Shown here in pieces: positions 2-21,531 of a stretch of DNA of 21,531 nucleotides. The notes beneath the pieces were generated by a model, which was not told the DNA's origin, did no database searches, and worked only from the letters and a program-made list of their open reading frames with translations. Numbering within the stretch: the stretch's first letter is position 1; the number at the start of each line of letters is the position of its first letter. Source of the stretch: a virus. The translations under genes were made by a program, and so were the position numbers. The stretch lies in IMG/VR virus record IMGVR_UViG_3300035670_001391, positions 1 through 21,531 of that record; one strand, written 5' to 3'.

Positions 2-508
2 CTTAGGGTTGATGCATCGATAGATGAAAAAATATTCAATCTTGTTAAGAAGTATGAAGAAAGAGCGCGGGCTGTTATTGAATATACATTTGGATTTCCC
101 GTAATCCCGTTTGGGGGAAGTTGCGATTTGAGGAAGTGGCATCCAGGTGAGTATCAGGAACCGCATGCAGACTCTGAGGGAAATTACGATGGAACAGATG
201 ATTATTTTGTTGATCAATTTTTAGTTGATAATTTTTCATCACTATTTATAGATGTCGGCTGCATCATGTACCTAAATGATGAATACTCTGGTGGGGAAAT
301 ATATTTTCCCGCTTATGAAATTGAGATAAAGCCAAAACCTGGCGACCTAATTTTCTTCCCTGGAAGCCACCTGTACATGCATGGCGTCAAGGAGTTGGCG
401 TCTGGCAATAGATACACATTGACAACATTTTATACAACTCCAAAAATGCAGTTCATTAAAAATTTCTTTGAGAAACATATAAACATATATCCAGATCAAG
501 ATATTTAG
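2..508 (+). CDS. 2OG-Fe(II) oxygenase (prolyl-4-hydroxylase-like), 5' end cut by window
   Basis: The reading frame is open from base 2 to the TAG at 506-508, so the gene begins upstream of the window. An apparent TTG start at 128 falls inside the conserved core and is not credible as the start. The visible 168 residues hold the catalytic half of a double-stranded beta-helix oxygenase. The iron-binding HxD is in EPHADSEG (His and Asp at visible residues 55 and 57), the distal His is in MHGV (127), and a candidate 2-oxoglutarate-binding Arg is in GNRYTL (137). The GGEIYFP and KPGDLIFFP strands are typical of the family. Such enzymes couple 2-oxoglutarate decarboxylation to hydroxylation of a protein or small molecule; the substrate here is unknown. 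It resembles the next gene most closely, including the MYLND...GGE block. Family assignment is firm; the function beyond it is not. Confidence 0.85.
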   Translation, partial: LRVDASIDEKIFNLVKKYEERARAVIEYTFGFPVIPFGGSCDLRKWHPGEYQEPHADSEGNYDGTDDYFVDQFLVDNFSSLFIDVGCIMYLNDEYSGGEIYFPAYEIEIKPKPGDLIFFPGSHLYMHGVKELASGNRYTLTTFYTTPKMQFIKNFFEKHINIYPDQDI

Positions 509-563
509 CCCACGGGAGTCGCTGGACAGAAGTTAATTTATGCTCTAGTGTTTCTCATTGGAA

Positions 564-570
564 AAGGAGA
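564..570 (+). promoter_or_regulatory. Ribosome binding site fixing the start at 575
   Basis: AAGGAGA lies four bases before the ATG at 575. It decides between this ATG and an in-frame GTG at 548, which has no such site and would add nine residues (MFLIGKGDF) not seen in the related genes downstream. Confidence 0.7.
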
Positions 571-574
571 CTTT

Positions 575-1285
575 ATGGAAATTCAGTATGTTGGCGATCC
601 AAAACTTGGAATAATTCTGTACAAAGGCGTTTTACCAAAAGAGCTTGGTCTTGTTGAGAGGCTGGAAACGACAATTGGGGAAAGCTCAACCCCTCCATTT
701 ATGTGGGCTGAAGCAATGGTTGGGGATCAGGTGAAAATGCCTGAATATAGAGATTGCGTTGACTGCAAAATCAGCCCAAAACACCTGGAAAATATTCCTC
801 AAGGGTTTTCAGAAATGAAGAAAATATACGAAGATACCGAGGTTCGTCTTCGTGAGTGCCTGAATGATTACGAACGCCGTTACAACATAAAGATGGACTT
901 TATGGAGGCAATTAACTATGTTAAATATGAACCAGGGCAGCACTTCAATATTCACTCGGATCATGGTTTCTCCTATACGTGCACACTCTCCTCGATCATG
1001 TATCTCAATGATGGATACGAAGGTGGGGAGCTATGGTTCCCGTATTTCTCGTTTAAATTCATACCAGAATGTGGCGATGTTTTGTTTTTCCCATCTACAT
1101 TCATATATGCACACGCCTCGATGAAGGTAACAAGTGGCGTAAAGTATTCAGCAGTGACAATGTTCGACTGGAATGACAGAGCTCATAAGTACGGTGGATA
1201 TGGTTTAAATTCCGACGGTTCACAAGTTATTTCAGCCGACGGGATTGGAACAAGAGATAATCCAGGGACGCTGACGCAATACTGA
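575..1285 (+). CDS. 2OG-Fe(II) oxygenase (prolyl-4-hydroxylase-like)
   Basis: A 236-residue protein with a complete iron triad: His127 and Asp129 in NIHSDHG and His180 in IYAHASM. The position that normally carries the 2-oxoglutarate-anchoring Arg (TSGxRY in the paralogues) is Lys190 here (TSGVKY), a conservative change compatible with carboxylate binding. The ATG at 575 has a good ribosome binding site, and the N-terminus (MEIQYVG...LGIILYKGVL) matches the starts of the later paralogues (MEIKHLGSGVVVFDGAI). A 66-base gap separates it from the preceding oxygenase; I see no clear promoter or terminator in it. Its TGA overlaps the next gene's ATG at 1285, so the two are probably translationally coupled. 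The reaction is likely hydroxylation of an unknown substrate. Confidence 0.88.
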   Translation: MEIQYVGDPKLGIILYKGVLPKELGLVERLETTIGESSTPPFMWAEAMVGDQVKMPEYRDCVDCKISPKHLENIPQGFSEMKKIYEDTEVRLRECLNDYERRYNIKMDFMEAINYVKYEPGQHFNIHSDHGFSYTCTLSSIMYLNDGYEGGELWFPYFSFKFIPECGDVLFFPSTFIYAHASMKVTSGVKYSAVTMFDWNDRAHKYGGYGLNSDGSQVISADGIGTRDNPGTLTQY

Positions 1286-1998
1286 TGGTAAATCTTGAGT
1301 TACTGAAAACAAGCCAGTACCCGCCACTAGTCACGCAATCAAAAGTTAGGCGTGATTGGATGGATAATACTTATGCGCGTCACGCCTATCAGTGCTACCC
1401 AATGACTATGGCAAATGTTATGGGATGGGAAGTGCAGTTAGAAAATGATGTTACTGTCATATGGGATGGCGGCAATTCTGTTCCAAGAATATTGTCAGGA
1501 GCAGAAAGCAGCAGCGGCAGGCAGGTTTGCTCGGCCAGCATTATCGGACAAATCTCTTTTCATATCGGTTATGTATTCAGAACACAAAAACCATATGAGG
1601 TAGCGATATCGGGTAGTCCAAATTTTGACTTTAATGGAGCAATCCCATTGACTGCATACATACCTTCAAGTTGGTGGCCAGATGAGGTATTTATGAACTG
1701 GAGGATCGAAAAAGCGAATGAGGAAATAACATTTAAATCCGGATTTCCTTTTGTTTTTCTAACAGTCATTGACAGCTCTTTGCTTGAAAATGTGAATATC
1801 TCTATTGGTGACTACTGGAAAGAGATGTCTCAGGAAAAAATAGAATCTAGAGTTAGGTATAGTGAAATGAAGTCAAAATTACACCAGGAGAGCCCGTGGA
1901 AGGGCTGGGCAAAGGGAATTAAGAGTGGAATTGATGCTGATGGGAATAGGCTAAATTCACCATTTACAGGTTTGCCAAAACTGCATGAACCAAAATAA
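1285..1998 (+). CDS. DUF6065-like protein
   Basis: A 237-residue protein starting on the ATG that overlaps the previous oxygenase stop (TGATG). The segment around residues 26-65 (YARHAYQCYPMTMANVMGWE, then a VTVIWDGG block) resembles what I recall of DUF6065, whose members share a C(Y/L)P...AN..GWE...WDG signature; this is memory, not a search. The rest looks like a compact alpha/beta or beta-rich cytosolic domain with a PSSWWPDEVFMNW block near residue 128 and a charged C-terminal helix. No signal peptide or membrane segment is visible. No reaction is established for the family as far as I know. Coupling to an oxygenase suggests it works in the same modification pathway, but that is inference from position only. 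Confidence 0.6.
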   Translation: MVNLELLKTSQYPPLVTQSKVRRDWMDNTYARHAYQCYPMTMANVMGWEVQLENDVTVIWDGGNSVPRILSGAESSSGRQVCSASIIGQISFHIGYVFRTQKPYEVAISGSPNFDFNGAIPLTAYIPSSWWPDEVFMNWRIEKANEEITFKSGFPFVFLTVIDSSLLENVNISIGDYWKEMSQEKIESRVRYSEMKSKLHQESPWKGWAKGIKSGIDADGNRLNSPFTGLPKLHEPK

Positions 1999-2006
1999 TA
2001 ACTTGA

Positions 2007-2025
2007 TGTTTGTGATGTATAATTT
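2007..2025 (+). promoter_or_regulatory. Promoter-like box, TGTTTGTGATGTATAATTT
   Basis: Contains a perfect TATAAT at 2018-2023, seven bases before the ATG at 2031. A -10 element there would place the transcript start on or next to the A of the start codon, giving a leaderless mRNA. That fits the absence of any ribosome binding site before that ATG. The 19-base box recurs with two differences at 3532-3550. I see no convincing -35 element. Confidence 0.45.
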
Positions 2026-2030
2026 CAGTT

Positions 2031-2243
2031 ATGAATACACTGACTGAAGAACAAATAGCTTTTGCTAAAAACAGGGCTAAGGTCCATCTAGAGAGGTCAA
2101 TACTTTCTTTATCTGTAATCCTCGGAATCGACCCTGACAGCATTGGCGATGACTTTGTTATACCTGTCGAAAGTGACAACCCATCATATTACGGATATGT
2201 TTCAATAATAAGTCAAATTTCTGCACTATCGAAACTGTCTTAA
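2031..2243 (+). CDS. Small hypothetical protein
   Basis: A 70-residue protein that I do not recognise. It has a basic helical N-terminal half (residues 5-32), followed by an acidic segment and a short hydrophobic C-terminal stretch (YYGYVSIISQISALSKLS) that is too polar and short for a clear membrane helix. There is no ribosome binding site upstream; instead a TATAAT box ends seven bases before the ATG, pointing to a possible leaderless start. Four bases separate it from the next small gene, so it probably heads a short operon running through to 3509. Confidence 0.55.
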   Translation: MNTLTEEQIAFAKNRAKVHLERSILSLSVILGIDPDSIGDDFVIPVESDNPSYYGYVSIISQISALSKLS

Positions 2244-2247
2244 AACC

Positions 2248-2436
2248 ATGTCACAAGATTCAGACAATAAAGTATCAGATGTTCAGTATGGAGATATGCC
2301 GACAGATACTGCACTGAATGCTAATGAGATACCAAAGTTTGATAAGAACTCAGATTCCTGGGTGACGCAAAATGGCAGTTCTTTTAAATGCATGACAATA
2401 AGTAGCGGTGCATACAATATAGCGATGGAGTCATAA
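2248..2436 (+). CDS. Small hypothetical protein
   Basis: A 62-residue acidic, Ser/Asn/Asp-rich protein that I do not recognise. No Shine-Dalgarno sequence is visible before its ATG. The composition (SDSWVTQNGSSFKCMTISSG) suggests a small beta-rich or partly disordered protein. It lies four bases after the previous gene and five bases before the next, consistent with one transcript. Being short, it could be spurious, but the tight, ordered packing supports it. Confidence 0.45.
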   Translation: MSQDSDNKVSDVQYGDMPTDTALNANEIPKFDKNSDSWVTQNGSSFKCMTISSGAYNIAMES

Positions 2437-2440
2437 TCAA

Positions 2441-2776
2441 ATGGCCGCAGAATCACTGAACTCTGAAAACATTTTTGATTCTCATAGCTTGCACTCTGAT
2501 GCAACATGCGACATAGCAACATTAATGATGATATGTGGCATGGACATTTCTGGAATATCTTTAATAACAATAGACGAGATAATAGAAAAAATTAGAGATA
2601 GCTATCCATATGCCTTATCTGAGTCAATAACTTTAGCGGTATCCGACGATGAGTTAACACTATATTCGCCATACTCCAGATGGCTAAGGGTGGAGAATTT
2701 ATCGCTTGTGCGCAGATTGAGGAGAGCATGGTTCAATATGGAGTTTGCTAGGGAGGTTGAGTTAAATGGAGAATAA
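2441..2776 (+). CDS. Hypothetical protein
   Basis: A 111-residue, mostly helical protein of unknown function. GGAGT lies about ten bases upstream of the ATG. The C-terminal half carries a charged helix rich in Arg and Glu (LVRRLRRAWFNMEFAREVE). A middle segment (ISLITIDEIIEKIRDSYPYA) looks like an amphipathic helix. It overlaps the next gene by 11 bases, suggesting translational coupling. No motif that I can tie to a function. Confidence 0.55.
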   Translation: MAAESLNSENIFDSHSLHSDATCDIATLMMICGMDISGISLITIDEIIEKIRDSYPYALSESITLAVSDDELTLYSPYSRWLRVENLSLVRRLRRAWFNMEFAREVELNGE

Positions 2777-3509
2777 TCCGCTCCTGACATCAATATATGC
2801 CGCTACCAATCTAAGCAAGCAATGTGGTTTTGACGGATATGAAAATCAAAAAATATATCCAAATACTGAAATAAAATCTATATCAGAGTATGTGATGTCA
2901 ATGCGCACTGATAAGCGCGCTGTAGCAACCGGAGTAGATGCAACAAATTATGCACCATTCCAAACACTCACAGCTGGATCTGATAATCATAAGGTTTTTG
3001 CCAGATCTGTTGGGCTATATGTAAATATGATTTCACATTTAGTAAAACCGTCTTCTGTCCTGGTTGACCAAAGTGTCTCCAATCCGGATGTTATTGTGAT
3101 GATGCATAGGATGTTTTCATCAAAGATCACAATACTGAATGGACCATACCTTCACCTGTACGAGAAATTTATTAAACATATATCTGACTCAATTAATGAA
3201 ATCCCATATTTCTCTAGGTCAAAATACGAAATAATCAACGATCAAACAGAGAAGTATGATTTAGTGATTCTTTATTCTGATGACCTAGAAGGCGAATATG
3301 ACTATACTGAGGCAGTATTAAATTCACTTTCCGATAGCGGCACGCTGCTGATTGTAAACTCAGCAAATCAAGGAATGTTGTACCATTCCGCTGACTACAC
3401 AATGACTCCGCAGGCAGAATTGCATGAATTCATAAATTCAAATACAGGATTTGCTACGTATCACATTCCAAACCTAATAGGGTTTACCGTAGTAAAAAAG
3501 ATTAGTTAG
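2766..3509 (+). CDS. Uncharacterised alpha/beta protein, possibly a degenerate class I methyltransferase fold
   Basis: A 247-residue protein that starts inside the end of the preceding gene, with GAGG upstream. The order of hydrophobic strands resembles a Rossmann-type methyltransferase. A first strand, SSVLVDQS, spans about residues 96-103. YDLVILYSDDL (164-174) sits where the substrate-side strand would be. SDSGTLLIVNS (189-199) resembles the strand after the usual 'pGG' turn. The glycine-rich SAM-binding motif expected after strand one is missing (it reads DQSVSNPDV), so catalysis is doubtful. It could be an inactive methyltransferase-fold scaffold, or unrelated. It is the last gene before a 76-base gap with a promoter-like box. 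Confidence 0.5.
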   Translation: MENNPLLTSIYAATNLSKQCGFDGYENQKIYPNTEIKSISEYVMSMRTDKRAVATGVDATNYAPFQTLTAGSDNHKVFARSVGLYVNMISHLVKPSSVLVDQSVSNPDVIVMMHRMFSSKITILNGPYLHLYEKFIKHISDSINEIPYFSRSKYEIINDQTEKYDLVILYSDDLEGEYDYTEAVLNSLSDSGTLLIVNSANQGMLYHSADYTMTPQAELHEFINSNTGFATYHIPNLIGFTVVKKIS

Positions 3510-3531
3510 AAAACAATAATAATTATAGCAG

Positions 3532-3550
3532 TGTTTATAATGTATAATTT
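3532..3550 (+). promoter_or_regulatory. Promoter-like box, second copy
   Basis: TGTTTATAATGTATAATTT matches the box at 2007-2025 at 17 of 19 positions and holds two overlapping -10-like TATAAT hexamers (3536-3541 and 3543-3548). It lies in the 76-base gap before the gene at 3586. A start about seven bases after the second hexamer would leave a leader of roughly 30 bases that includes a GGACGGA ribosome-binding-like sequence. No clear -35 element. Confidence 0.5.
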
Positions 3551-3585
3551 ATCCCAAGAAACAAGACTAAGAACTGGACGGAATA

Positions 3586-3843
3586 ATGAAATTCTCATCT
3601 AACATTCCAACAGAAGAACTGAAAACCATATATACAGATTCTCTTGCGCAGCTGGAGAAAAAATTGATGCTCCGCACGCTCGAGCTGGGCCAGGACCCAG
3701 AAACATTCGATTATGAGAATCTGGATACGTTCGAATCTTCGCTGCAGGAAGATGATGCGGAGAGCAAGGATAAAGTTAAAGTTATCCGTCAGATATTTCC
3801 AGCCATAGAGATGATAAATAAAAAACTAGAAGAGCTTGGCTAG
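3586..3843 (+). CDS. Small helical hypothetical protein
   Basis: An 85-residue acidic, all-helical protein of unknown function. Residues 8-36 and 62-84 look like two amphipathic helices flanking an acidic linker (DAESKDK), so a helical hairpin or coiled-coil dimer is plausible. GGACGGA precedes the ATG. It appears to be preceded by its own promoter-like box and is followed by a 40-base gap before the next oxygenase. Part of its coding sequence (about 3650-3720) is noticeably more GC-rich than its neighbours. Confidence 0.55.
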   Translation: MKFSSNIPTEELKTIYTDSLAQLEKKLMLRTLELGQDPETFDYENLDTFESSLQEDDAESKDKVKVIRQIFPAIEMINKKLEELG

Positions 3844-3883
3844 TAGATCCCACTTAGGGGAAATTTGATAATATTTTGCCACC

Positions 3884-4564
3884 ATGTTGGTAAAAGACAA
3901 TTTTTTATCTCAGAAACTTTGCGACTTAATATCGGATGATGAATTATTTTTCCCAGAATCGATGGGCGATTCTGATCGTATTGCTACGGAAATAAATTCA
4001 TACCATACTGAGCAGTCTTCATGCTTTGCACCATACATGTTTTGGGATGGCTGGCTTAATTCCCCACCTAATACAATAAAAAAAATTGTTATACAGAAGA
4101 TATGGGAAGACAACCTCCCTTTTCCAGTATCGGAAGTTTGTGGTTTTGAGTACTGGACCAGGACATTCAAGGCTGGTCAATACCTTGCACCGCACGTAGA
4201 TGAGGACACTTTTCTTTACTCTGACTCGAAAGTGCTTAGTGGTCCTGCTATTGGCAGCATCTACTATGGGCCTGATACTGATGCATCAAATGGTGGATTT
4301 CTGGAAATATATCCTGGAGTTCTTGCTGATGGAACGCATATGGCGCTCGAGTATCAAAATATAAAACCATTAATTGAGGATGAAAAACTAAGAGAACGAA
4401 TATTATGCAAGCCAAATAGATTAATAGTATTTGATGCTGGTCATGTTTTGCATGGGACCGTTCCGGCAACTAGCGGAACTAGGTATGTTATGGTTATCAA
4501 CGTGTGGCACAAAGATAATCCACCTACAGCATTGAAGGATGGGAAATTTTTCTATGAAACATAA
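3884..4564 (+). CDS. 2OG-Fe(II) oxygenase
   Basis: A 226-residue oxygenase of a branch different from the tandem set downstream. The active site is intact: His104 and Asp106 in LAPHVDEDTF, distal His190 in HVLHGTV, and Arg200 in SGTRYVMVINVW. It lacks the WW(R/K)xxGH signature. A charged insert (about 155-176) separates the two halves of the beta-helix core. No ribosome binding site lies close to the ATG; an AGGGG is about 20 bases upstream, and a GATAAT 12 bases before the ATG could be a -10 element giving a very short leader. The next gene begins inside its last codons. A hydroxylase role is likely; the substrate is unknown. Confidence 0.85.
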   Translation: MLVKDNFLSQKLCDLISDDELFFPESMGDSDRIATEINSYHTEQSSCFAPYMFWDGWLNSPPNTIKKIVIQKIWEDNLPFPVSEVCGFEYWTRTFKAGQYLAPHVDEDTFLYSDSKVLSGPAIGSIYYGPDTDASNGGFLEIYPGVLADGTHMALEYQNIKPLIEDEKLRERILCKPNRLIVFDAGHVLHGTVPATSGTRYVMVINVWHKDNPPTALKDGKFFYET

Positions 4565-4844
4565 AGGTGACTGGGTGCTTGCAATAAAAACACCACTCGG
4601 TAGTGAAGACTATTCACTACTTATAAGAGATGACATGTCTGGATCAATATCCCACCAAAAAGGCACTGTGCATTTTGAACATGCAGTTGTAAAGAACGAC
4701 GGATTTCTGCAAATAATTGGCGAAACAAATGTACCGATGACAACAAAATACAAGATAGAAATTCTATTTTCTGAATCAACTGGCATAGGTGTTGCTTCTA
4801 TTGGTGATTTTGCTTCAGCTCCAGTAACAGCGAAAAGAGCCTGA
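4554..4844 (+). CDS. Small beta-rich protein of a widespread uncharacterised family
   Basis: A 96-residue protein. I chose the ATG at 4554 because the region GGATGGG precedes it by about ten bases and the protein then begins MKHKGDWVLAIKTPLGSEDY. An ATG at 4539 would add five residues. The pattern GxWxLxIxTPxG near the N-terminus, a central Gly plus alternating strands, a PM motif (residues 61-62), and a terminal FxxxPxxxxRA resembles a family of about 100-residue proteins I recall from many bacteria, with no known function. The fold is probably a small beta-barrel of lipocalin-like strands. It overlaps the previous oxygenase by 11 bases and is one base from the peroxidase-like gene, so it belongs to the same operon and may bind a hydrophobic or small ligand there (inference). 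Confidence 0.6.
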   Translation: MKHKGDWVLAIKTPLGSEDYSLLIRDDMSGSISHQKGTVHFEHAVVKNDGFLQIIGETNVPMTTKYKIEILFSESTGIGVASIGDFASAPVTAKRA

Positions 4845-4845
4845 T

Positions 4846-5460
4846 ATGGATTCTATATATGACATAGAAATTCGTTCTCTCGATGGGACAAGCAACGTCA
4901 TGGAGGATGTTAAGGGCAAGATATGCCTAATGGTTAATATCGCGTCAAAATGTGGGTATGAGCCAAAATGCAGCCCATTATGGTCATTTGCTAGAACTGC
5001 TAGACAGTTGTGGGAACTGCAGGTTGTCCATGAACAATTTAATGATCGAGGATTTAGTGTAGTTGGTTTCCCATGTAACCAGTTTGGGAAAATGGAACCA
5101 AGTAGTAATGAGGAGATATCGAAGTTCATAAAGGAAAATTATGGTTTCGTAACATTTCCAATTACAGAGAAAATAGAAGTTAACGGCGAAAATGAGCACA
5201 GGATATATAAGTTGCTAAAAGGCCCATTGCTAAGGCGCAGCGATGACAATATGGCCGATATGTCAGATGAGGCAGCTGCTGGCCAAAATAAAGCCATGCA
5301 GGCGATGTCGAGAGTTCCTCATAACTGGGAGAAATTCCTTGTCAGCAGAGATGGTATCCAGGTCGGAAGATTCAACTGGGCAGAATCACCACTCGCTGAC
5401 GAGCCGATTGCGATGGGTGCTGGTTGGACGATTAGAGAGGCAATAGCTGAACTTCTATGA
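4846..5460 (+). CDS. Glutathione peroxidase-family thioredoxin-fold protein
   Basis: A 204-residue protein with the family landmarks. Cys36 in NIASKCG is at the peroxidatic position (Cys form, not selenocysteine). FPCNQFG and a following EP carry the active-site Gln, and EKFLVSRDG matches the C-terminal KFLxxxxG strand. Usual members read W-N-F before xKFL; here it is H-N-W, so the Asn is kept but the catalytic Trp position is His. There is also an insert of about 15 residues after Cys42 and another (about 127-150) before the KFL strand. Family members reduce hydroperoxides using thiols, mostly thioredoxin for Cys forms. The changes leave real peroxidase activity uncertain. Its ATGA overlap with the next oxygenase suggests coupled translation. 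Confidence 0.85.
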   Translation: MDSIYDIEIRSLDGTSNVMEDVKGKICLMVNIASKCGYEPKCSPLWSFARTARQLWELQVVHEQFNDRGFSVVGFPCNQFGKMEPSSNEEISKFIKENYGFVTFPITEKIEVNGENEHRIYKLLKGPLLRRSDDNMADMSDEAAAGQNKAMQAMSRVPHNWEKFLVSRDGIQVGRFNWAESPLADEPIAMGAGWTIREAIAELL

Positions 5461-6512
5461 GCTTGACAGAAGATATAACGCCTGATGATCCAAGATTTCA
5501 TGAGTTGCCGCCATTCCCGTCAACTCCCATAATTGATGATGATGCCATAAAAGAAATAGCCTCGTACGAATATGAGGAACTTGCACCAGGAATAGTTGTT
5601 TTTAGAAATGTGTTGCAGTTTGATCAAGAATCAGTTCTCAAATACATAGATGAAAACGCTGCACCGGCACATGCAACTAGATGGACCTATATCATTGCCG
5701 AAGACGGAGAAGAGTACGGTATTAACGAAGATGGTTTTAGATATAGGCCAGAGGATATTCCGTCAACTCCCGTAAGACTTCTGAAGCCAGTCGTACACTC
5801 CACTCCAGAAAATATAAAGAACTTTTTCTATGGCATGGAAGACACTATTTATAAGTGCCTAATGCGGTATATAGATATGTATCCATTACTTGTCGGTTGC
5901 ATATGGTGGAGAAATCGCGGGCATATACTTCGCTATGAAGACCAGGGCGTTCTTGGGGCACACTGTGATAACGACACAAACTATAAAGTTACCGAAGGTG
6001 TCCGCTACATGCCACGTGGGCAAGTTGCTGCTAGACAAACAATGGGGGCACTTACCTACTTGAATGACTGCGTTGATTCAGAGGATCAGATAGATAAAGA
6101 AGGTGGCACAAATTTCCTTGGTGGACATTTAGAGTTCTTCCATCTGGGTGTTGAATACAAGCCTCGCAAGGGAGACATAATTATGTTTCCGACCAACTAC
6201 ATCGCATCGCATCAAGTAAGCCGAATGACAGCGGGAAGACGCTATAGCTATTTGTCATTTTTTGGACAGGGTAGCGAAGATGTAAAAGCTGGAGTTTCAA
6301 TTATCTCCTCAGACGAGAGCCGCCAATGGTGTCCGCCGGTATGGCTAGACAATATCTATGATGACTACGAAAGATTTTGTAAGTCACCATATTCCATATT
6401 TACGCCCGATAACACAGAAATAAACATAGGTATTAATCCCGTCTATCAGGGCAGATGCGTTGCCCAGTATGGAACTACGCACGATGCGATAGATCTCGAG
6501 GCTGAAGAGTAG
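5457..6512 (+). CDS. 2OG-Fe(II) oxygenase, first of four tandem paralogues
   Basis: A 351-residue protein, the longest of the set. It has about 40 extra N-terminal residues rich in Asp and Pro before the block EELAPGIVVFRNVL that starts the shared domain. The WWRNRGH signature is at 150-156. The iron triad is His169 and Asp171 (GAHCDND) and His252 (ASHQVS), with Arg262 in AGRRYSY for 2-oxoglutarate. Strand motifs KGDIIMFPTNYIASH and GGHLEFF match its neighbours. A C-terminal tail of about 80 residues follows the core. It overlaps the preceding peroxidase-like gene by ATGA. It may hydroxylate a protein or small molecule; nothing in the sequence names the substrate. Confidence 0.88.
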   Translation: MSLTEDITPDDPRFHELPPFPSTPIIDDDAIKEIASYEYEELAPGIVVFRNVLQFDQESVLKYIDENAAPAHATRWTYIIAEDGEEYGINEDGFRYRPEDIPSTPVRLLKPVVHSTPENIKNFFYGMEDTIYKCLMRYIDMYPLLVGCIWWRNRGHILRYEDQGVLGAHCDNDTNYKVTEGVRYMPRGQVAARQTMGALTYLNDCVDSEDQIDKEGGTNFLGGHLEFFHLGVEYKPRKGDIIMFPTNYIASHQVSRMTAGRRYSYLSFFGQGSEDVKAGVSIISSDESRQWCPPVWLDNIYDDYERFCKSPYSIFTPDNTEINIGINPVYQGRCVAQYGTTHDAIDLEAEE

Positions 6513-6519
6513 GTCATCC

Positions 6520-7383
6520 ATGGAGCCAATTCACCTAGGTGGCGGCACTGTAGTTTTTAAAAATGCAATAGATGTTCCACAGGACGTTGTAATCCCACAT
6601 CTTGAATCATTAAAAGAGCAAGCAAGAAGTGAAATGTTTGATTATGTGTATGACGATAGCGGTGAGCCAATACATGTGATTAATCAGGGAGGCTTCATAT
6701 ATGAGCTAGATGACATAATGAAGTCTCCAGTAAGAATACAAAATGGACTAACTATTCCATTCTTTGAAGAATGTGAAGAAGCTATATATAAAGCTTTACT
6801 AATGTACGTCGAAATGTTCCCGGCAATTTTGCATTGTCTATGGTGGCGCAGTGTCGGCCACATACTCGCCTATGACAAAGGGGCAAAGCTTGGTTTCCAC
6901 TCAGATAATGATGTTAATTACAGGTATGGCGCAGAACCACAAATGCAGCATGCAACACGAAATGTTTTGAGTGCCCTTATTTATCTAAATGACTGCATAG
7001 ACGAAGGTGAAGAGGAAAAACCATATTCGTTTTCTGGCGGACATATGTCTATACCTTATTTTGGTATTGACATAAAGCCAGAAAAAGGAATGATATGCCT
7101 GATGCCAGCCAACTATTTAGGTGCACACGAAATATTTGAAGTTACACGAGGAACCAGGTATTCATATCTTGGATGGTTTGCGCAGGGTTCTGCAGATCCA
7201 GATAGAGGTGTGCGTCCGTTTAATACAAAAGAAGAGATGGCTATGGGCAACCAGCTATGGCTTAAAACAATTATTGAAGATTATGGGTCTTATATAGATT
7301 CAAAATATGAAAATGGGCATATGCCAGAACAATTAAAATTGTTCAGCAGCAGAAAAATGGATCATACGCATGCATCTCAATGA
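6520..7383 (+). CDS. 2OG-Fe(II) oxygenase, tandem paralogue 2
   Basis: A 287-residue protein seven bases after the previous gene. It starts directly with the shared domain (MEPIHLGGGTVVFKNAI), supporting the chosen ATG. WWRSVGH is at 108-114. The iron ligands are His127 and Asp129 in GFHSDND and His203 in GAHEIF, with Arg213 in GTRYSYLGWF. The segment between HxD and the GGH strand is longer than in minimal prolyl hydroxylase-like enzymes and contains a YLNDC block shared with paralogue 1, its closest relative here by eye. The next gene begins 14 bases before its stop. Confidence 0.88.
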   Translation: MEPIHLGGGTVVFKNAIDVPQDVVIPHLESLKEQARSEMFDYVYDDSGEPIHVINQGGFIYELDDIMKSPVRIQNGLTIPFFEECEEAIYKALLMYVEMFPAILHCLWWRSVGHILAYDKGAKLGFHSDNDVNYRYGAEPQMQHATRNVLSALIYLNDCIDEGEEEKPYSFSGGHMSIPYFGIDIKPEKGMICLMPANYLGAHEIFEVTRGTRYSYLGWFAQGSADPDRGVRPFNTKEEMAMGNQLWLKTIIEDYGSYIDSKYENGHMPEQLKLFSSRKMDHTHASQ

Positions 7384-8251
7384 AATAAAAGCCAACCATC
7401 TGGGCAGCGGTGTTGTCCTGTTCGAAAATGTTCTTGATCTTGATTTTGAAAAATTTTATGATATAGCAAAAGAAGTAGTTATTAGAGAAAAAAACGAAAT
7501 GTATGACCTGACTACTCATCCAGAAACTGGAGAACAGGTATACGTAAACAAAAGTGGCTACTATTTTGACATCAAGAATGTTGATGAAATGCCGATGCGT
7601 GGATCAATGATTCATCTGGACAATAGAAAAGAAGTTAGAAAAATTCTTGCATTTGTAGAGGATGCAAAATACCAGTGCCTTCTTAGATATATGGAAATAT
7701 TTCCAATTTCCTATAAAAACATATGGTGGAAAGTAAAGGGACATATTGTTGGCTATGGGCCAGGCGTTTATCTTGGCGTCCACTCGGACACGAGTGCAGA
7801 TTATGTTTATGGCCTCCCACACCCTCCCGACCAGTTGGCAACTAGAAATACTGTCTCGTGCATTGTTTATATAAATGATTCAGTTGAGTCTTCTGATCAA
7901 ATTGGCCCTCGTGAATTTTCCGGTGGAGAACATCATTTCGACTTTTTAAATATTACGTATAAGCCAAAAAAGGGCGACATATTGATGTTCCCATCAAACT
8001 TCATAGCATCGCATGAGGTTAAGCCAACAACTGCTGGACTAAGGCTTTCATATCTTGGATGGTATGCGCACGGAACACCAAATAATGCAGTTAGCGAGTA
8101 TGTAAACGACCCAAATAACGAAAATGATGGGGCGATTACTTCAACAAATGTTTATATGCCTAATCTAAGGTCTGATTTTCAAGAATACCTCCTTAGCGTT
8201 GGGCACGACAAAAACACACTTCCTTATTCAATAACGACTGTGGGTAGCTAA
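7370..8251 (+). CDS. 2OG-Fe(II) oxygenase, tandem paralogue 3
   Basis: A 293-residue protein. The ATG at 7370 lies inside the preceding gene and is the only in-frame start before the shared LGSGVVLFENVLDL block; no strong ribosome binding site is visible, consistent with coupled translation. WWKVKGH is at 119-125 (Lys in place of Arg). The iron triad is His138, Asp140 (GVHSDTS) and His215 (ASHEVK), with Arg225 in AGLRLSYLGWY. The HPPDQLATRNTVS loop resembles the equivalent loop in paralogue 4. The stop TAA shares its last base with the next ATG. Confidence 0.88.
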   Translation: MHLNEIKANHLGSGVVLFENVLDLDFEKFYDIAKEVVIREKNEMYDLTTHPETGEQVYVNKSGYYFDIKNVDEMPMRGSMIHLDNRKEVRKILAFVEDAKYQCLLRYMEIFPISYKNIWWKVKGHIVGYGPGVYLGVHSDTSADYVYGLPHPPDQLATRNTVSCIVYINDSVESSDQIGPREFSGGEHHFDFLNITYKPKKGDILMFPSNFIASHEVKPTTAGLRLSYLGWYAHGTPNNAVSEYVNDPNNENDGAITSTNVYMPNLRSDFQEYLLSVGHDKNTLPYSITTVGS

Positions 8252-9039
8252 TGGAAATAAAACATCTTGGTTCTGGTGTGGTTGTTTTTGACGGGGCAAT
8301 CAATATCGACAAAGAATTGATAGATGGGTATATTGCTCACTTAAGGGAAACTGGCGCAACAGAGGTATTCACAGAGCAAAAAGATGATGATGGAAATGTC
8401 ACTCACGCTCTAAATCCAACCGGTTACGAGTTTGACCTCGAGGCGGTGAGCATGGCCCCAGAGAGATATGTCCAGATATACAACGAAAGAACCCCACAGA
8501 AATATAAAGATTTCCTACAAGAATGTGAAGATGTCTTCTATAAGTGCATGGTTGAGTACTGCAAAATATTCCCAGTAGCACTTGAATCGATATGGTGGAG
8601 AACGAGGGGGCATGTAGCTACTTACAGAAATGGGCAAAATATAGGCCCCCATTCAGATACGGCAATACCTCATGTCTTTGGCGAGAAGCCAGTAAATCAG
8701 TTCCCTCTTCACAATACGGTGACCGCAACTCTTGGCTTCAACGAAGAATTTGAAGGTGGAGAAGTTCACTTTAGGGCATGGGATATAACGGTTCCGGCGA
8801 AAACTGGCAGGATAATTATGTACCCATCAAACTACATGGGTACTCATGAGGTATTCCCAGTTACCTCTGGGGAGCGTTATGTATACTTGTCATGGTTCTG
8901 TTTTGGTGACACAGGAATGCCCTTGCCGCCAATATCGGAACAGGGACTAGAGCAAATGTGGAAATGGCTACCAAATCTAAAAAATGATGTCGGTAGTGAA
9001 AACATGTTCGCCAAAAAGGCAGAGGTTCAAAAACTTTAA
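8251..9039 (+). CDS. 2OG-Fe(II) oxygenase, tandem paralogue 4
   Basis: A 262-residue protein, the shortest of the tandem set. It begins MEIKHLGSGVVVFDGAI on an ATG overlapping the previous stop (TAATG). WWRTRGH is at 115-121. The iron triad is His134, Asp136 (GPHSDTA) and His199 (GTHEVF), with Arg209 in SGERYVYLSWF. It lacks the longer acidic loop seen in paralogues 1-3 before the GGEVHF strand and replaces the usual (I/V)YxND by LGFNEEF, so its substrate pocket probably differs. A 25-base gap follows, with a weak TAGGG ribosome binding site for the next gene. Confidence 0.88.
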   Translation: MEIKHLGSGVVVFDGAINIDKELIDGYIAHLRETGATEVFTEQKDDDGNVTHALNPTGYEFDLEAVSMAPERYVQIYNERTPQKYKDFLQECEDVFYKCMVEYCKIFPVALESIWWRTRGHVATYRNGQNIGPHSDTAIPHVFGEKPVNQFPLHNTVTATLGFNEEFEGGEVHFRAWDITVPAKTGRIIMYPSNYMGTHEVFPVTSGERYVYLSWFCFGDTGMPLPPISEQGLEQMWKWLPNLKNDVGSENMFAKKAEVQKL

Positions 9040-9064
9040 TTTTCGCTTATGGTAGGGTTTATCT

Positions 9065-9688
9065 ATGAGTACAAAATCTGTATATGAAATCAACATAAAT
9101 AGTGTTGATGGTGAAGATAACTTTCTATCCCAGTTTATGGGCAAAGTAACGTTATTCATTAACGTTACTGGGCATTGTGGGAATGCGCCGCAATTCGACA
9201 TAGTACAGAAGCTCTATGACAAGTACAATGATCGCGGCTTTCAGGTAATAGCAATTCCAACAAATGACTACTGCGGCCCTGGCGTTACATATGGAATATA
9301 TGAAGATGGAATATGTGACGGTAATATGGCGAGGGAATACGCGACAAAAGAGTGGGGCGTAACTTATCCATTTACTGAATTAGTTGTCTCTAGGGAAGAT
9401 CGTGATGGTGAAGACCCGAAGGGTAGATCTGTCCACGATATATATAAATTCCTGAATCCAGGAGGAGAAGAATCTCCCATCAACGGGAATTTTGAAAAGT
9501 TCTTAGTTGATAAGACTGGCCATGTTGCATTGCGCCTAGCAAATGGAGTTTTGTTAGATTTTGCCTACAAGGACGGATACTGTAGGCCACCAGAAGTTGA
9601 ATTCGAAAAACTGTGTTCAGCAATTGAGTTTCTACTAGATTCACCTGATGGTGTTGAGGTGGAAATAGGAAAAGAATACTTCGAGTAA
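9065..9688 (+). CDS. Divergent glutathione peroxidase-family protein
   Basis: A 207-residue thioredoxin-fold protein. Cys38 in NVTGHCG is at the peroxidatic position. The usual FPCNQFG reads IPTNDYCG here, so the active-site Gln is replaced by Asp, and a Cys follows two residues later. The WNFxKFL motif is GNFEKFLVDKTG, keeping Asn but losing Trp. It therefore keeps Cys and Asn but lacks Gln and Trp of the family's active-site tetrad. Peroxidase activity is doubtful; a thiol-disulphide or binding role is possible. The N-terminus (VYEININSVDGEDN) lines up with the other family member (IYDIEIRSLDGTSN), so the two genes on either side of the oxygenase array look like old paralogues. Confidence 0.78.
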   Translation: MSTKSVYEININSVDGEDNFLSQFMGKVTLFINVTGHCGNAPQFDIVQKLYDKYNDRGFQVIAIPTNDYCGPGVTYGIYEDGICDGNMAREYATKEWGVTYPFTELVVSREDRDGEDPKGRSVHDIYKFLNPGGEESPINGNFEKFLVDKTGHVALRLANGVLLDFAYKDGYCRPPEVEFEKLCSAIEFLLDSPDGVEVEIGKEYFE

Positions 9689-9696
9689 GGAAAAAA

Positions 9697-9936
9697 ATGG
9701 AAGTTAGCCCACAGGTTATAATTGACGAGCTGCTGAAAAAGGTAAATGCACTCACAGCAGAGAACATCATTCTCTCAGCACAGGTCAGAACATTGACAGA
9801 CAAGATTGCTGGCTATGCAGCAGTTTCGCCAGGAAATGTAATGTCTTCAACGATCAACAGTGAAGGCAAGTACGATGAGCAAATAGCAAGAAATGGATTT
9901 GGCTCACCATCTGTTGACTCAGAATCGGAAGACTGA
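9697..9936 (+). CDS. Small coiled-coil protein
   Basis: A 79-residue protein of unknown function. A strong TAAGGA ribosome binding site precedes the ATG. Residues 6-38 form a heptad-like helix (LLKKVNALTAENIILSAQV), probably a dimeric or trimeric coiled coil, followed by a Ser/Gly-rich disordered tail ending in acidic residues. It is the last gene of the plus-strand block, and its TGA abuts the stop of the opposing tail operon. Confidence 0.6.
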   Translation: MEVSPQVIIDELLKKVNALTAENIILSAQVRTLTDKIAGYAAVSPGNVMSSTINSEGKYDEQIARNGFGSPSVDSESED

Positions 9937-9939
9937 TCA
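9934..9939. other. Abutting convergent stop codons (TGATCA)
   Basis: The plus-strand TGA (9934-9936) and the minus-strand TGA (read from 9939 to 9937) form one palindromic hexamer, so the two opposing operons meet with no spacer. A 5-bp inverted repeat with a 5-base loop (9940-9944 and 9950-9954) follows inside the minus-strand gene, but no U-rich tract accompanies it. Any terminator must lie inside coding sequence. Confidence 0.75.
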
Positions 9940-10149
9940 CCACTTACCTAGTGGGCAGACTGCTTCTGCAAGTTTTACCTTTAGCTTCATAAAGCAACCG
10001 CATTCACGGCACTGCCTTGTTATGTTTGTTAACCTATCGCAGTCTTCGCATATTGAGTAGCGTTCGTCCTGCATTGACTTAGTTGCAAACTCCGTATCTG
10101 ACTTTAGGAAGTCAGTTGGTGACACATTTCTTCCAGTAGTTCTTTTCAT
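9937..10149 (-). CDS. Six-cysteine zinc-ribbon-like protein
   Basis: A 70-residue protein with Cys34, Cys37, Cys47, Cys50, Cys52 and Cys65. The arrangement CxxC...CxxCGC...CPLGKW is typical of a treble-clef or zinc-ribbon metal site. The C-terminal CGCFM...CP..KW pattern resembles DUF6171 and small proteins I recall from other phages; this is memory and not a search. The basic N-terminal half may bind nucleic acid or a partner protein. It overlaps the upstream gene by ATGA and is the last gene of the tail operon. Confidence 0.65.
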   Translation of the reverse strand: MKRTTGRNVSPTDFLKSDTEFATKSMQDERYSICEDCDRLTNITRQCRECGCFMKLKVKLAEAVCPLGKW

Positions 10150-10583
10150 TCAGGTTCTGGCTGTTCTCTTGGGGCAAATAAATCCCACGAAACGTTTTCT
10201 TCATTCCATAGAAATGTGTGGTGCTCAGTGAATGGTCTATCCGTAAGTGGCCATGTTTCTTGCGTATATTGCTCTGGTCGTGGAATGGGTGGCGTCCATT
10301 TCCCATCTACAAGTATGAATGAATCTACGCCTATTGGCTTTGGATCTATAAATACATCATTTATCGGGTCATATATCCCACCAACAGATGCGTACTGACG
10401 CCGAATATTTGAATTAATTGATGTCTGAATCCATCTGCTATCTTCTTCGCCGGTAAGACGTTTACATAAAGCAATGCCAATTTCTTCTGACTCATTACCA
10501 TCTTCATCAAGAATATCGTCGTTACTGATTACGATAACTCGTACAACAATATTTTCATCATCTAACTGTGCAAAGTGCGCCAT
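10146..10583 (-). CDS. Conserved phage protein near tail fibre genes
   Basis: A 145-residue protein. The opening MAHFAQLDDENIVVRVIVIS, an acidic ESEEIGIALC block, the RWIQTSINSNIRRQYASVGG stretch and a YDPINDVFIDPKP strand match a family I recall from phages of aquatic bacteria, often beside tail or fibre genes and usually unnamed. It is probably a small beta-rich protein, either a virion component or a fibre accessory; the sequence does not tell. AAGG lies about eight bases before the ATG, and the gene sits 15 bases after the fibre gene, in the same operon. Confidence 0.6.
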   Translation of the reverse strand: MAHFAQLDDENIVVRVIVISNDDILDEDGNESEEIGIALCKRLTGEEDSRWIQTSINSNIRRQYASVGGIYDPINDVFIDPKPIGVDSFILVDGKWTPPIPRPEQYTQETWPLTDRPFTEHHTFLWNEENVSWDLFAPREQPEPE

Positions 10584-10598
10584 GATAAAACCTTAATG

Positions 10599-12422
10599 TT
10601 AAGCTGGTCCTATATAAGTGACTATATAGTAACCGCCGTAGTTTGGGTTGCCTGGGCCAATATAGCCAGGTGCAGGTTGACCAGAGCTATCTCCAGTGAA
10701 GAACCCACCTCGTCCACCGCCAGCTACTCCGCCTCCGGATCCAGCCCCTTCACCTAGCGCTACAGACCAATAAGTTCCAGGTCCGCCCTGTCCGCGCGAG
10801 CCACTTCCAGCGCCAGCACCACCGTTTTCTCCATAAAATCCACCGCCACCAGCTCCGCCAGCACCGCCACCTCCACCGCTCCAGACATAGAACCCACCTG
10901 AATCCTCGCCGCCAACGTTTCCGTAGTTGTATGTTCCGTCATATTTTTCGCATGCTCCGCCCTGCCTATATGCGCCAGGGGTTCCGCGTCCAGAATAGAA
11001 TGTTCCACCTGAATCTCGATATGAAGAATTATTACCGTATCCATTTGCTGCGCCAGCAGCGCCTATAACTACAGCGATGAAATCGCTGCTAGACCTTCCG
11101 CTTGCGGTTCTATAGCCACCGCCACCACCGCCGCCGCCAGGAGCGTATGTTGCACCTCCAGCTCCAGCCCCCCATATTTCATATGAAATACTTGAAATAT
11201 CTACTCCATATGGAGGTTTAGTGGCAATAGTTGCACTGCTGTTTCCATATTTTGTATGCGTTGTGTATGTAGTAAAACTACCAGTTGAACTTCCATTGTA
11301 GATACTCACGGCTCTTGCTATTGAACCGGTAGTTTGAACTGTCGCACCACCACGATATGTTGCCGTAGCCCGCCAATATATTGTTCCAGAAGTGCTTGAT
11401 CCAAGGTTCCATGAAGATGCTACTTCCGTATTCACACTTCCGATACTTACAGAGCCAGCACTTGTTCCATAACTTGTTGACGTTCCATACTCAACAGAAA
11501 CTGTTGTGGCGCTTCCGTTCGGAGTAAACCTAGTAGTTAATGAGAATGTAGATGATGAGTTTGTAACCCTCACGCGCCATTCATGTGCGGTATTTTCAGC
11601 AAGACCGCTTAGTGAATTTCCACTTGGTGTTACTGCTGTACCACTTATTCTTTCGTAATCATAGAATGTTCCACCAGATCCAACGCTTGGAACAAGTGTT
11701 GCAGTTGTTGTACTTACGCTAGAAACCCCAGTTGTTGAAGTAGAAGGCGCAGTTGCCGTAGAAGAACCAGACTGAGTTCCAATAGATGGCGGAGCATATG
11801 GATAATCATTTGCAGACGACGAGTTTGCGCTTTGCCCAGCAGCATTTTCAGCACGAACCCTAAAGTAATAAGTAGTGCCATTTGTTAAACTACTAACAGT
11901 TCTTGACGTACTTGTGCTTCCAGTATTTATTGTCGTAACACCGCTAGCAAATGTTGAAGATGTTGAGTAATCAACATAGTAATTTGTTATTGCGCTTCCA
12001 CCATTATTCGGGGCAGTCCAAGAAACAACTATCTGCCCAGATGTTGCATTTGCTGAAGCAGAAACGCTGGTTGGTGCTGCTGGAACTGTAAATGGAGTTA
12101 CTGAGCCAGTAGTCGCCGCATCAGAAGTAATTCCAGAACCAGACTGCTTGACTATAGAAAACGTATAAGCCGTTCCGGCAGTTAAAGTTCCAGCTGAAAA
12201 TGTTATTGGAGAACTGGCTGCAGATGCAGTAACACTTCCAGGGCTTGATGTTGCAACGTAGTTTCCAGAAGGCTTCCCAGGGTTAGTGGATGCAGTAAAT
12301 GAAACTGTTACTGCTCCAGCAGTTCCATTGACAGTCCCAGCAGATGCAGAAGCAGACACCGATGTCGGTGGAGTAGGCAATCTTGCACTAGATCCTGGCT
12401 GAGATATTGGGAATGCTGGCAT
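10599..12422 (-). CDS. Tail fibre with fibronectin type III-like and glycine-rich domains
   Basis: A 607-residue Ser/Thr/Gly-rich protein. After a short N-terminal segment, fibronectin type III-like domains are recognisable at about 16-110 and, most clearly, 114-206 (PAAPTSVSASA, then VVVSW-type and TYYFRVRAEN strands). Less regular beta repeats of the same kind run from 212 to 370. The C-terminal 200 residues form a glycine-rich domain with the opening SISYEIWGAGAGGA and a run of eight Gly near residue 430, and include YGNVGGEDSGG and GGAGGGGFYG. Such glycine-rich ends occur in phage and bacterial surface adhesins. It is probably the distal, receptor-binding fibre, and follows the beta-repeat fibre by two bases. 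It carries one cysteine (491). Which tail appendage it forms cannot be told. Confidence 0.75.
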   Translation of the reverse strand: MPAFPISQPGSSARLPTPPTSVSASASAGTVNGTAGAVTVSFTASTNPGKPSGNYVATSSPGSVTASAASSPITFSAGTLTAGTAYTFSIVKQSGSGITSDAATTGSVTPFTVPAAPTSVSASANATSGQIVVSWTAPNNGGSAITNYYVDYSTSSTFASGVTTINTGSTSTSRTVSSLTNGTTYYFRVRAENAAGQSANSSSANDYPYAPPSIGTQSGSSTATAPSTSTTGVSSVSTTTATLVPSVGSGGTFYDYERISGTAVTPSGNSLSGLAENTAHEWRVRVTNSSSTFSLTTRFTPNGSATTVSVEYGTSTSYGTSAGSVSIGSVNTEVASSWNLGSSTSGTIYWRATATYRGGATVQTTGSIARAVSIYNGSSTGSFTTYTTHTKYGNSSATIATKPPYGVDISSISYEIWGAGAGGATYAPGGGGGGGGYRTASGRSSSDFIAVVIGAAGAANGYGNNSSYRDSGGTFYSGRGTPGAYRQGGACEKYDGTYNYGNVGGEDSGGFYVWSGGGGGAGGAGGGGFYGENGGAGAGSGSRGQGGPGTYWSVALGEGAGSGGGVAGGGRGGFFTGDSSGQPAPGYIGPGNPNYGGYYIVTYIGPA

Positions 12423-12424
12423 GG

Positions 12425-13555
12425 TTAAGCTTTCAGGTCACCGATAACGTACCAGTCGTTTTCGCCTTTATTTATCAGCGTGACGCTTGAGTATTGCGTT
12501 CTGAGTACGGCAACGGTAGGTGAAGCGAGTGGAAGTGGAGTACCCCTAAGGGTCTGCCCGGGAAATGATATGGATGCCGAGCTTGTGCTTGCACTCATTT
12601 GCATGATTGTTACCTGTGAACCAACAGTCCATCCACTTCCAGTTACATATATAGTTCCAGCAGTAGATGAATCAGTTTCTATAAACCTTCCATCACTTGC
12701 TGCAGTTATTGATGCGCTGTTTGCGACGCTTGCTGTGGTTATATGGCTGATTACATTTCCAGTAGCTGTTATAGTTCCACCAACTGTTATTGCTCCAGTT
12801 ACAGCTGCACTTCCAGATACGGTTAAGTTTGTTGCAACAGATGCGGATCCGGCTATAGCTGCGCTGCCACTCACTGAAAGTATGTCATCGATTGTTACTG
12901 TGCCGCCAGCTGAATCAAGAGTTAGATTTCCGCTTGACGTATCTATCTCTCCAGCTGCGGTTACTCCAATCTGAACTGCATCTAGTGTTGCGCCAGCAAA
13001 TGTTGGGTTAGCTGATGTATGGATGTCCTGCGGAAGCGATAGTGTTACTGCTGCAGTTTCGGTTCCAGAGCCAGAAACTGTAATTTGATTTGTTGTCCCA
13101 GCGACTGTAGCAACATAGTTTCCAGTTGTATCAGTGCCTAGGGCAATTCCGTTGCTGCTTACTGTTATTACTCCAGTATCACTGATTGTTGCGTCACCGG
13201 AAAGTGTTACGTATGTCGGAACGCCAGATGAGTTACATACAATTATCTGGCCAGATGTCCCATCTATGAGCCTATCTAGTTGGAGTATTCCTTCAGAAAC
13301 TTGAGAGTTTTGCGAAACTGAGAATTGCGATGAGGAGACCCATTGTGTTCCGTCATAAAACTGTATAATATTGTCTGATTTTATATAGCAAACACGTCCT
13401 TCAGATAAGACTGGTTCACCTGATCCACCGAAAGCATTATCTCGCGCAGTTGTAGTTTCGAACACACATACAGCTTGATCCATGAGGTAGCCATTGACCT
13501 CATCTGCTGTAAGCGTTTCGCCGCTTAAAAATTTCTTTATTCCTAGTCCAGCCAT
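12425..13555 (-). CDS. Beta-repeat tail fibre
   Basis: A 376-residue protein. I chose the ATG at 13555 because AGGAG lies six bases upstream; an in-frame GTG at 13585 would start inside a hairpin. Residues 14-28 (LTADEVNGYLMDQAV) and a module ending FYDGTQWV (about 36-73) are typical of fibre N-termini. Long alternating stretches of SGSAAITG-like repeats (about 100-270) suggest a trimeric beta-helical shaft. The last hundred residues (FIETDSSTAGTIYVTGSGW to NDWYVIGDLKA) look like a globular beta knob. It follows the gpI-like gene, the place of the fibre gene in P2-type tails, and precedes the glycine-rich fibre. Confidence 0.75.
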   Translation of the reverse strand: MAGLGIKKFLSGETLTADEVNGYLMDQAVCVFETTTARDNAFGGSGEPVLSEGRVCYIKSDNIIQFYDGTQWVSSSQFSVSQNSQVSEGILQLDRLIDGTSGQIIVCNSSGVPTYVTLSGDATISDTGVITVSSNGIALGTDTTGNYVATVAGTTNQITVSGSGTETAAVTLSLPQDIHTSANPTFAGATLDAVQIGVTAAGEIDTSSGNLTLDSAGGTVTIDDILSVSGSAAIAGSASVATNLTVSGSAAVTGAITVGGTITATGNVISHITTASVANSASITAASDGRFIETDSSTAGTIYVTGSGWTVGSQVTIMQMSASTSSASISFPGQTLRGTPLPLASPTVAVLRTQYSSVTLINKGENDWYVIGDLKA

Positions 13556-13572
13556 TGCTACTCCTGCTCTAT

Positions 13573-13597
13573 CTAATTTTATCACTCATAAAATTAG
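13573..13597. repeat. Perfect inverted repeat in the intergenic gap before the fibre genes
   Basis: CTAATTTTAT, five-base loop, ATAAAATTAG: two perfect ten-base arms. It lies between the gpI-like stop (13620) and the fibre start (13555). No U-tract follows the hairpin on the minus strand, so it is not a classic intrinsic terminator. It could be a weak terminator or attenuator, an RNA-processing hairpin, or a protein site that adjusts fibre expression. Confidence 0.6.
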
Positions 13598-13619
13598 TCA
13601 AAATACCAAACATTCTTTT

Positions 13620-15143: not shown

Positions 15144-15150
15144 TAGAGTC

Positions 15151-16614: not shown

Positions 16615-16615
16615 T

Positions 16616-19269: not shown

Positions 19270-19271
19270 AA

Positions 19272-21530: not shown

Positions 21531-21531
21531 G

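Follow-up and report, generated by a model that had tools for sequence, protein, structure and literature searches.

Virus-encoded hydroxylases that act on structural proteins of the virus itself are known from eukaryotic viruses, such as the collagen hydroxylase vCPH of PBCV-1, a prolyl/lysyl hydroxylase with a repeat-rich structural substrate, and Mimivirus L230, another viral collagen hydroxylase. 2-Oxoglutarate- and Fe(II)-dependent (2OG-Fe(II)) oxygenases are also common in cyanophages and are some of the most frequent enigmatic genes in phages of aquatic habitats, where we know of no substrates for them. The IMG/VR record IMGVR_UViG_3300035670_001391, a virus fragment of 21,531 bases analysed as its entire deposited contig (hereafter, the window), carries seven such oxygenase genes (P0001 to P0007) in a single tight plus-strand array of abutting or overlapping genes at positions 2–9936. 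The block is best explained as the greater part of an island for post-translational modification in a large tailed phage, probably one of Actinobacteria. We consider it fairly probable that the island is a dedicated system for the hydroxylation, and partly the glycosylation, of the phage's own proline-rich fibre tip.

An original prediction, made from the sequence alone, had placed seven 2OG-Fe(II) oxygenase genes with an intact HxD...H iron triad at positions 2–9039, and all seven open reading frames (ORFs) were recovered on the plus strand, at or near the expected places. Six of them pass the cut-off of the PF13640 profile (27 bits) with 37–44 bits, and the seventh, P0003, just below it at 24.5 bits, nevertheless retains the motif, with matches to phrog_61 and phrog_274. 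When all seven are aligned, the iron-triad residues H55, D57 and H127 (P0001 numbering) are among the invariant columns, and the H, D and H positions are essentially invariant within each ortholog group. The predicted cosubstrate residues were likewise found, namely Arg in six proteins and Lys in P0002, the latter in 34 of 34 P0002 orthologs; Arg is kept almost throughout the P0001 and P0004–P0007 groups, and the corresponding column of the P0003 group is partly misaligned in the residue count. The P0002 frame starts with an ATG at 575 and has an in-frame GTG at 548. Among the paralogs of related loci (numbered with an L), those of the Oxy_5 type (PF13759) at L110 7407–8330, L122 6905–7825 and L011 5537–6202 read HSHKSN in place of HxD, and their iron ligands may differ.

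In a tree of 319 non-redundant paralog sequences, P0004–P0007 form one clade (support 99), with which P0002 groups (support 82), and P0001 falls in a separate group that is expanded in some lineages, with up to seven copies in L016. Of the subtypes proposed beforehand, P0003 is kept as a third one; the pairing of the genes at 2–508 and 575–1285 as one subtype is not supported. P0002, P0003, P0005 and P0006 are present in close to one copy per locus, and P0004 and P0007 nearly so; judged by sequence, the window oxygenases fall into separate ortholog groups, each gene apparently kept for itself. Pairwise ratios of nonsynonymous to synonymous substitution (dN/dS) between related loci are mostly 0.02–0.2 where dS is unsaturated, and together with the conserved catalytic residues they rule out decaying gene copies.

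Profile and fold searches, which could have revealed proteins of another kind, returned oxygenases. The AlphaFold model of P0006, the only one of the seven to which this prediction applies, has a predicted local distance difference test (pLDDT) score of 95 and a predicted double-stranded beta-helix fold; its top 50 fold matches in the PDB are almost all peptidyl prolyl hydroxylases, with template modelling (TM) scores by target of about 0.5–0.67 and 10–20% identity. The PBCV-1 enzyme (PDB 5c5t) ranks first, and an algal P4H with (Ser-Pro)5, a Pseudomonas P4H with EF-Tu and PHD2 are also included, while sequence profile matches reach PiuC and prolyl hydroxylases. Since complexes of P4H and EF-Tu (4iw3, 5v7y) are among the closest folds, one or more paralogs could be supposed to hydroxylate host proteins, for instance EF-Tu, as the P4Hs of Pseudomonas and Bacillus do, thereby redirecting translation. 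We regard this as quite improbable, because it leaves unexplained why 5–12 ordered paralogs lie beside the fibre repeat gene described below.

One of the four tandem oxygenases, used as query, recovered 76 distinct viral loci, and a profile search of IMG/VR for DUF6065 (PF19541), a marker gene of the island, at least 488 viral contig stretches. Among 50,697 catalogued phages there was no match to DUF6065, to the N-acetylglucosamine (GlcNAc)-transferase of some relatives or to a repeat-fibre protein, and none in a distant blastn search with positions 3884–10583; the system marks hundreds of uncultured virus contigs and has no representative in catalogued phages. For bacterial genomes, a single-sequence scan with DUF6065 gave nothing and a profile scan gave only two contigs of metagenome-assembled genomes (MAGs), L103 and L104, labelled Verrucomicrobiales and Gammaproteobacteria; as both carry the entire island themselves, they probably represent viral sequence binned in error. 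Where a DUF6065 locus spans at least 14 kb, it contains 5–12 oxygenases (median 9) in a conserved order, running from 2OG genes through P0002, DUF6065, small ORFs, a methyltransferase-like gene, P0003 and a glutathione-peroxidase (GPx)-like gene to the P0004–P0007 group. Large contigs have their copies grouped together instead of spread out, as in a contig of 170 kb where 10 fall within 19 kb, and in four large relatives 7–10 PF13640 genes lie within 12–19 kb of 134–170 kb, for which a crude chance probability is 1e-6 to 1e-8. The oxygenase block is a conserved island: related genomes, which might have shown scattered, unlinked and decaying copies, instead show linked, ordered and catalytically intact ones under purifying selection. 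Such linked, intact and selected copies support the earlier idea that the genes serve a dedicated system of oxidative modification, acting on several substrates or in several steps, in which the enzyme activity is a predicted one.

The left border of the island is formed by tail-fibre genes in 39 of 42 loci, and one of these left-flank fibre families is composed of 14% Pro and 15% Thr. The C-terminus of the fibre protein consists of 4–20 tandem (F/Y)FPP units, e.g. PYFPPFFPPYFPPYFPPFFPP, in tracts that often end in -FK (63 of 73 distinct tracts with short tails), and the N-terminal parts are fn3 domains, with a weak PASTA match in L108. This repeat gene directly precedes the island in all 48 loci with enough upstream sequence, 44 of them with the tetrapeptide and four, first counted as lacking a repeat, with an FxPPxF hexapeptide variant; the distance to the first 2OG gene is usually 5–80 bp and at most about 1.6 kb. 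The 48 loci are redundant, yet the repeat gene is found in all clusters defined by DUF6065 identity (31 at 95%, 15 at 80% and 7 at 70%). Synonymous differences set the repeat units apart (71% are distinct as DNA), so that selection on the peptide is more probable than fresh duplication. As the main repeat site, the right-hand flank was rejected, with only 5 of 44; a right-flank fibre gene that also has an FFPP repeat, followed by a Cys-rich tail, is seen at L033 14720–15367(−), L038 15844–16527(−) and L024 6130–6753(−). Collagen was likewise discarded as a general substrate, given that Gly-X-Y collagen-like tracts occur in only two loci (L010 and L130) and the general repeat is (F/Y)FPP.

The linkage was also examined in reverse, by scanning IMG/VR for DNA encoding FPP[FY]FPP[FY]FPP regardless of oxygenases, which yielded a set of which a few contigs also belong to the first. 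A 2OG gene lies no more than 5 kb downstream of the repeat in 43 of the 56 contigs with room; within 3 kb, it is found downstream in 35 of 46 and upstream in 1 of 37. Among 80 control viral stretches drawn by an arbitrary 14-mer, three had a 2OG gene and none the repeat (Fisher p = 4e-20 and 1e-12, unadjusted for relatedness among contigs). The island is thus linked to the repeat gene in one direction only, and the two very probably constitute one functional unit; that the repeat prolines are the substrate is less certain. Lying behind a proline-rich repeat gene, the island has a concrete candidate substrate, and, to judge by the strictness of the linkage, these viruses may alter the chemistry of the fibre by which they attach.

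Relatives add further enzymes to the set, namely Asp/Asn hydroxylase, Oxy_5, TauD, PhyH, radical SAM/SPASM, cyclopropane-fatty-acid/mycolate synthase (CMAS), desaturase and AurF-like genes. A PF11397 gene, of the family that we take to be that of the Skp1 hydroxyproline GlcNAc-transferase, is present in 11 of 34 related contigs and, in each locus examined, lies no more than 1.5 kb from a 2OG gene; none was seen in profile and family searches of the window proteins. Some islands enclose CMAS and fatty acid desaturase genes (L055 4774–5904(−), L022 15109–16041(−)), and a sulfotransferase-like family, with a profile match to heparan sulfate 6-O-sulfotransferase, occurs among the first 2OG genes of many, e.g. 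at L044 788–1576 and L025 1752–3279.

We infer a scheme, from catalysis, substrate and residue to timing and adhesive role, in which fibre proteins of the phage itself would be modified by a set of prolyl-hydroxylase-like 2OG-Fe(II) oxygenases; foremost among the candidate substrates is the (F/Y)FPP-repeat tail-fibre-like protein encoded directly upstream. Different paralogs would modify different positions, prolines first, with other fibre residues left to the AspH, PhyH, TauD and Oxy_5 relatives, and in some phages the PF11397 enzyme may transfer GlcNAc onto the hydroxyl so formed. Protection against peroxide or help with oxidative maturation might be the task of the GPx-like proteins, and DUF6065, the methyltransferase-like protein and the small ORFs could have accessory roles or present the substrate. 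The outcome would be a stiff, adhesive fibre tip that is hydroxylated and resembles extensin or collagen; that some paralogs hydroxylate Phe or Tyr to give DOPA (3,4-dihydroxyphenylalanine)-like adhesive residues is pure speculation.

Several observations weigh against fibre hydroxylation. A 2OG gene is missing altogether from eleven contigs that have the repeat and sufficient room, and the contigs are not independent samples. One modelled enzyme, P0006, is no proof of the substrate class for all seven, and PiuC-type hydroxylases, whose substrate is unclear, are also near. The repeat gene itself is outside the window, which is cut upstream of the expected site, and its presence in this phage is deduced from L107 and L108; moreover, between the window and L007 the oxygenases are 78–86% identical and the tail fibres only about 50%. 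Finally, some relatives carry lipid-type enzymes, and the CMAS, desaturase, PhyH, TauD and AurF-like genes, together with the sulfotransferase-like family, would suit oxygenases whose target is glycan, teichoic acid or lipid of the host envelope, or whose product is a small hydroxylated compound, with superinfection block or altered host metabolism as the outcome and the tail-operon position incidental. This explanation is unlikely, as the lipid-type and sulfotransferase-like genes are confined to subsets of relatives and it accounts neither for the strict directional link to the repeat gene nor for the peptidyl-hydroxylase fold.

The window's own repeat gene is not visible because the record starts inside the first oxygenase. 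The earlier suspicion that the block extends upstream agrees with the closest relatives, which have two additional PF13640 genes and a PhyH-type dioxygenase there. From L107 (83% identical to the window in P0002, 85.5% in P0004 and 79% in GPx) and L108, two more 2OG genes, a PhyH gene and then the repeat gene are predicted upstream of the window.

Regarding the host, 13 of 30 related records (two of the 30 being whole MAGs) contain WhiB, which marks Actinobacteria as well as the phages that infect them (PMC10202952), and the window baseplate-J protein is nearest to Gordonia phages; by these affinities an actinobacterial host is likely for the virus group and a candidate one for the window phage. 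Cyanophages carry up to five 2OG genes per genome, for which an alteration of host 2-oxoglutarate or nitrogen signalling or of oxygen stress has been proposed (PMC3037559), and the GPx genes would fit redox stress, as proposed for freshwater phages (PMC6802176). A role of this kind is nevertheless highly improbable here, since 2-oxoglutarate drawdown needs one enzyme, not several distinct old ortholog groups, and WhiB points to actinobacterial hosts, whereas NtcA is a cyanobacterial regulator.

DUF6065, which we propose as a partner or adaptor, follows immediately after a 2OG gene in 109 of 136 cases, usually P0002 in relatives. Its AlphaFold model (pLDDT 79) is matched by Foldseek to a predicted dUTPase-like beta fold, and no dUTPase motifs were seen in its conserved columns. 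The resemblance to dUTPases is what speaks for hypermodification of phage DNA bases by the oxygenases, to which we give the slightest chance of all: Tet/JBP (PF12851) exceeds its cut-off in none of 11 large contigs, a thymidylate-synthase-family gene is present in just one of the 11, and the island is located in the tail region. In the nearest relative, another copy of DUF6065, diverged to 29% identity, is found upstream at L105 419–1189, again beside a 2OG gene. Of 92 loci that are 13 kb or longer, 85 have the methyltransferase-like gene c2; small helical ORFs and this gene form a cassette after DUF6065 (window 2031–2776) that is duplicated as a unit in L018 (9000–10416 and 14287–15700). Both GPx-like proteins, P0008 and P0009, match PF00255 and have the peroxidatic Cys, in SKCG and GHCG motifs.

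The features of the window are listed in Table 1. Gene junctions of the plus-strand array fall at 1285/1285, 2766/2776, 4539/4564, 5457/5460, 7370/7383 and 8251/8251. Convergent to it, the minus strand of 9937–21531 encodes tail-fibre and baseplate genes; a DUF6171 gene at 9937–10149(−) marks the convergent junction, and is found at the equivalent position in many relatives.

Table 1. Genes of the oxygenase array and its right flank in the window.
Feature	Position	Strand	Evidence and remarks
2OG-Fe(II) oxygenase P0001	2–508	+	PF13640, 40.4 bits; HxD...H...R; 5' end cut by record edge
2OG-Fe(II) oxygenase P0002	575–1285	+	PF13640, 39.7 bits; Lys at 2OG site
DUF6065 (PF19541)	1285–1998	+	134 bits; island marker gene
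Small ORF	2031–2243	+	phmmer similarity to small ORFs at equivalent position in relatives
Small acidic ORF	2248–2436	+	Counterparts 42% identical in nearest relatives
Small ORF, family s11	2441–2776	+	Clustering, blastp
Methyltransferase-like (Rossmann) protein c2	2766–3509	+	Island core; weak PDB profile match to methyltransferases
Small ORF, family s17	3586–3843	+	Found by comparison with relatives
2OG-Fe(II) oxygenase P0003, third subtype	3884–4564	+	PF13640, 24.5 bits, under cut-off; H, D, H kept in ortholog group
Small beta-rich protein c19	4539–4844	+	In relatives usually immediately ahead of GPx gene
Glutathione-peroxidase-like P0008 (Cys type)	4846–5460	+	PF00255, 109 bits
2OG-Fe(II) oxygenase P0004	5457–6512	+	PF13640, 37.3 bits; 85.5% identical in L107
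2OG-Fe(II) oxygenase P0005	6520–7383	+	PF13640, 38 bits; 80.8% identical in L107
2OG-Fe(II) oxygenase P0006, prolyl-hydroxylase-like fold (predicted)	7370–8251	+	PF13640, 44.4 bits; AlphaFold pLDDT 95; PDB matches
2OG-Fe(II) oxygenase P0007	8251–9039	+	PF13640, 41.5 bits; 86% identical in L007
Second glutathione-peroxidase-like P0009, diverged	9065–9688	+	PF00255, 51 bits
Small ORF, last of array	9697–9936	+	Counterpart 58% identical in L007
Fibre protein, TF6 family, right flank	10599–12422	−	fn3 domain, Gly-rich C-terminus; without FFPP repeat
Tail-fibre-like protein, TF3 family, right flank	12425–13585	−	Family clustering; related TF3 proteins match tail-fibre PHROGs

When compared with described systems, the island shares with the viral collagen hydroxylases a virus-encoded enzyme and a repeat-rich structural partner; those, however, belong to viruses of eukaryotic hosts and consist of one enzyme acting on Gly-X-Y collagen, whereas here 5–12 paralogs accompany (F/Y)FPP repeats in bacteriophages. 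The 2OG-Fe(II) oxygenases of T4-like cyanophages and pelagiphages (PHROG 61) belong to the same superfamily, and some of those in cyanophages S-CAM7 and S-MbCM7 likewise lie beside tail or tail-fibre genes, but they show less than 30% identity to the island enzymes and come without DUF6065; the proline-aromatic repeat was absent from the two tail-adjacent cyanophage stretches examined. Bacterial EF-Tu prolyl hydroxylases (PPHD, B. anthracis P4H) share the P0006 fold, yet each is a single housekeeping enzyme outside any island. The Skp1 pathway (PhyA and Gnt1) resembles the island in bringing together a P4H-type enzyme and a PF11397 glycosyltransferase, although in the island the latter is restricted to the subset of relatives given above and was not seen in the window. 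No paper on DUF6065 or on hydroxylated phage tails was found in the open-licence literature, and the association of a multi-paralog island with a non-collagen proline repeat in bacteriophages appears to be new, with no earlier report in the open-licence papers or phage records searched. Through the strict, directional link of island and repeat, what used to be an auxiliary metabolic gene without an assigned role becomes an enzyme–substrate pair that can be tested; if the proposal is true, phages build fibre tips by oxygen-dependent protein hydroxylation, with consequences for host recognition, for infection that depends on O2 and for new prolyl-hydroxylase tools. Tandem Pro-rich motifs with aromatics that are hydroxylated and, in extensins, glycosylated as well are also known from plant extensins and mussel adhesive proteins; the phage repeat differs from them in sequence, and its modification is a presumed one. 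We tentatively suggest, as a possibility short of even odds, that this is the first bacteriophage system to make a fibre tip of aromatic-proline repeats that carries multiple hydroxylations and, in some lineages, glycosylation, with 5–12 hydroxylases and their substrate travelling together as a viral counterpart of extensin or collagen.

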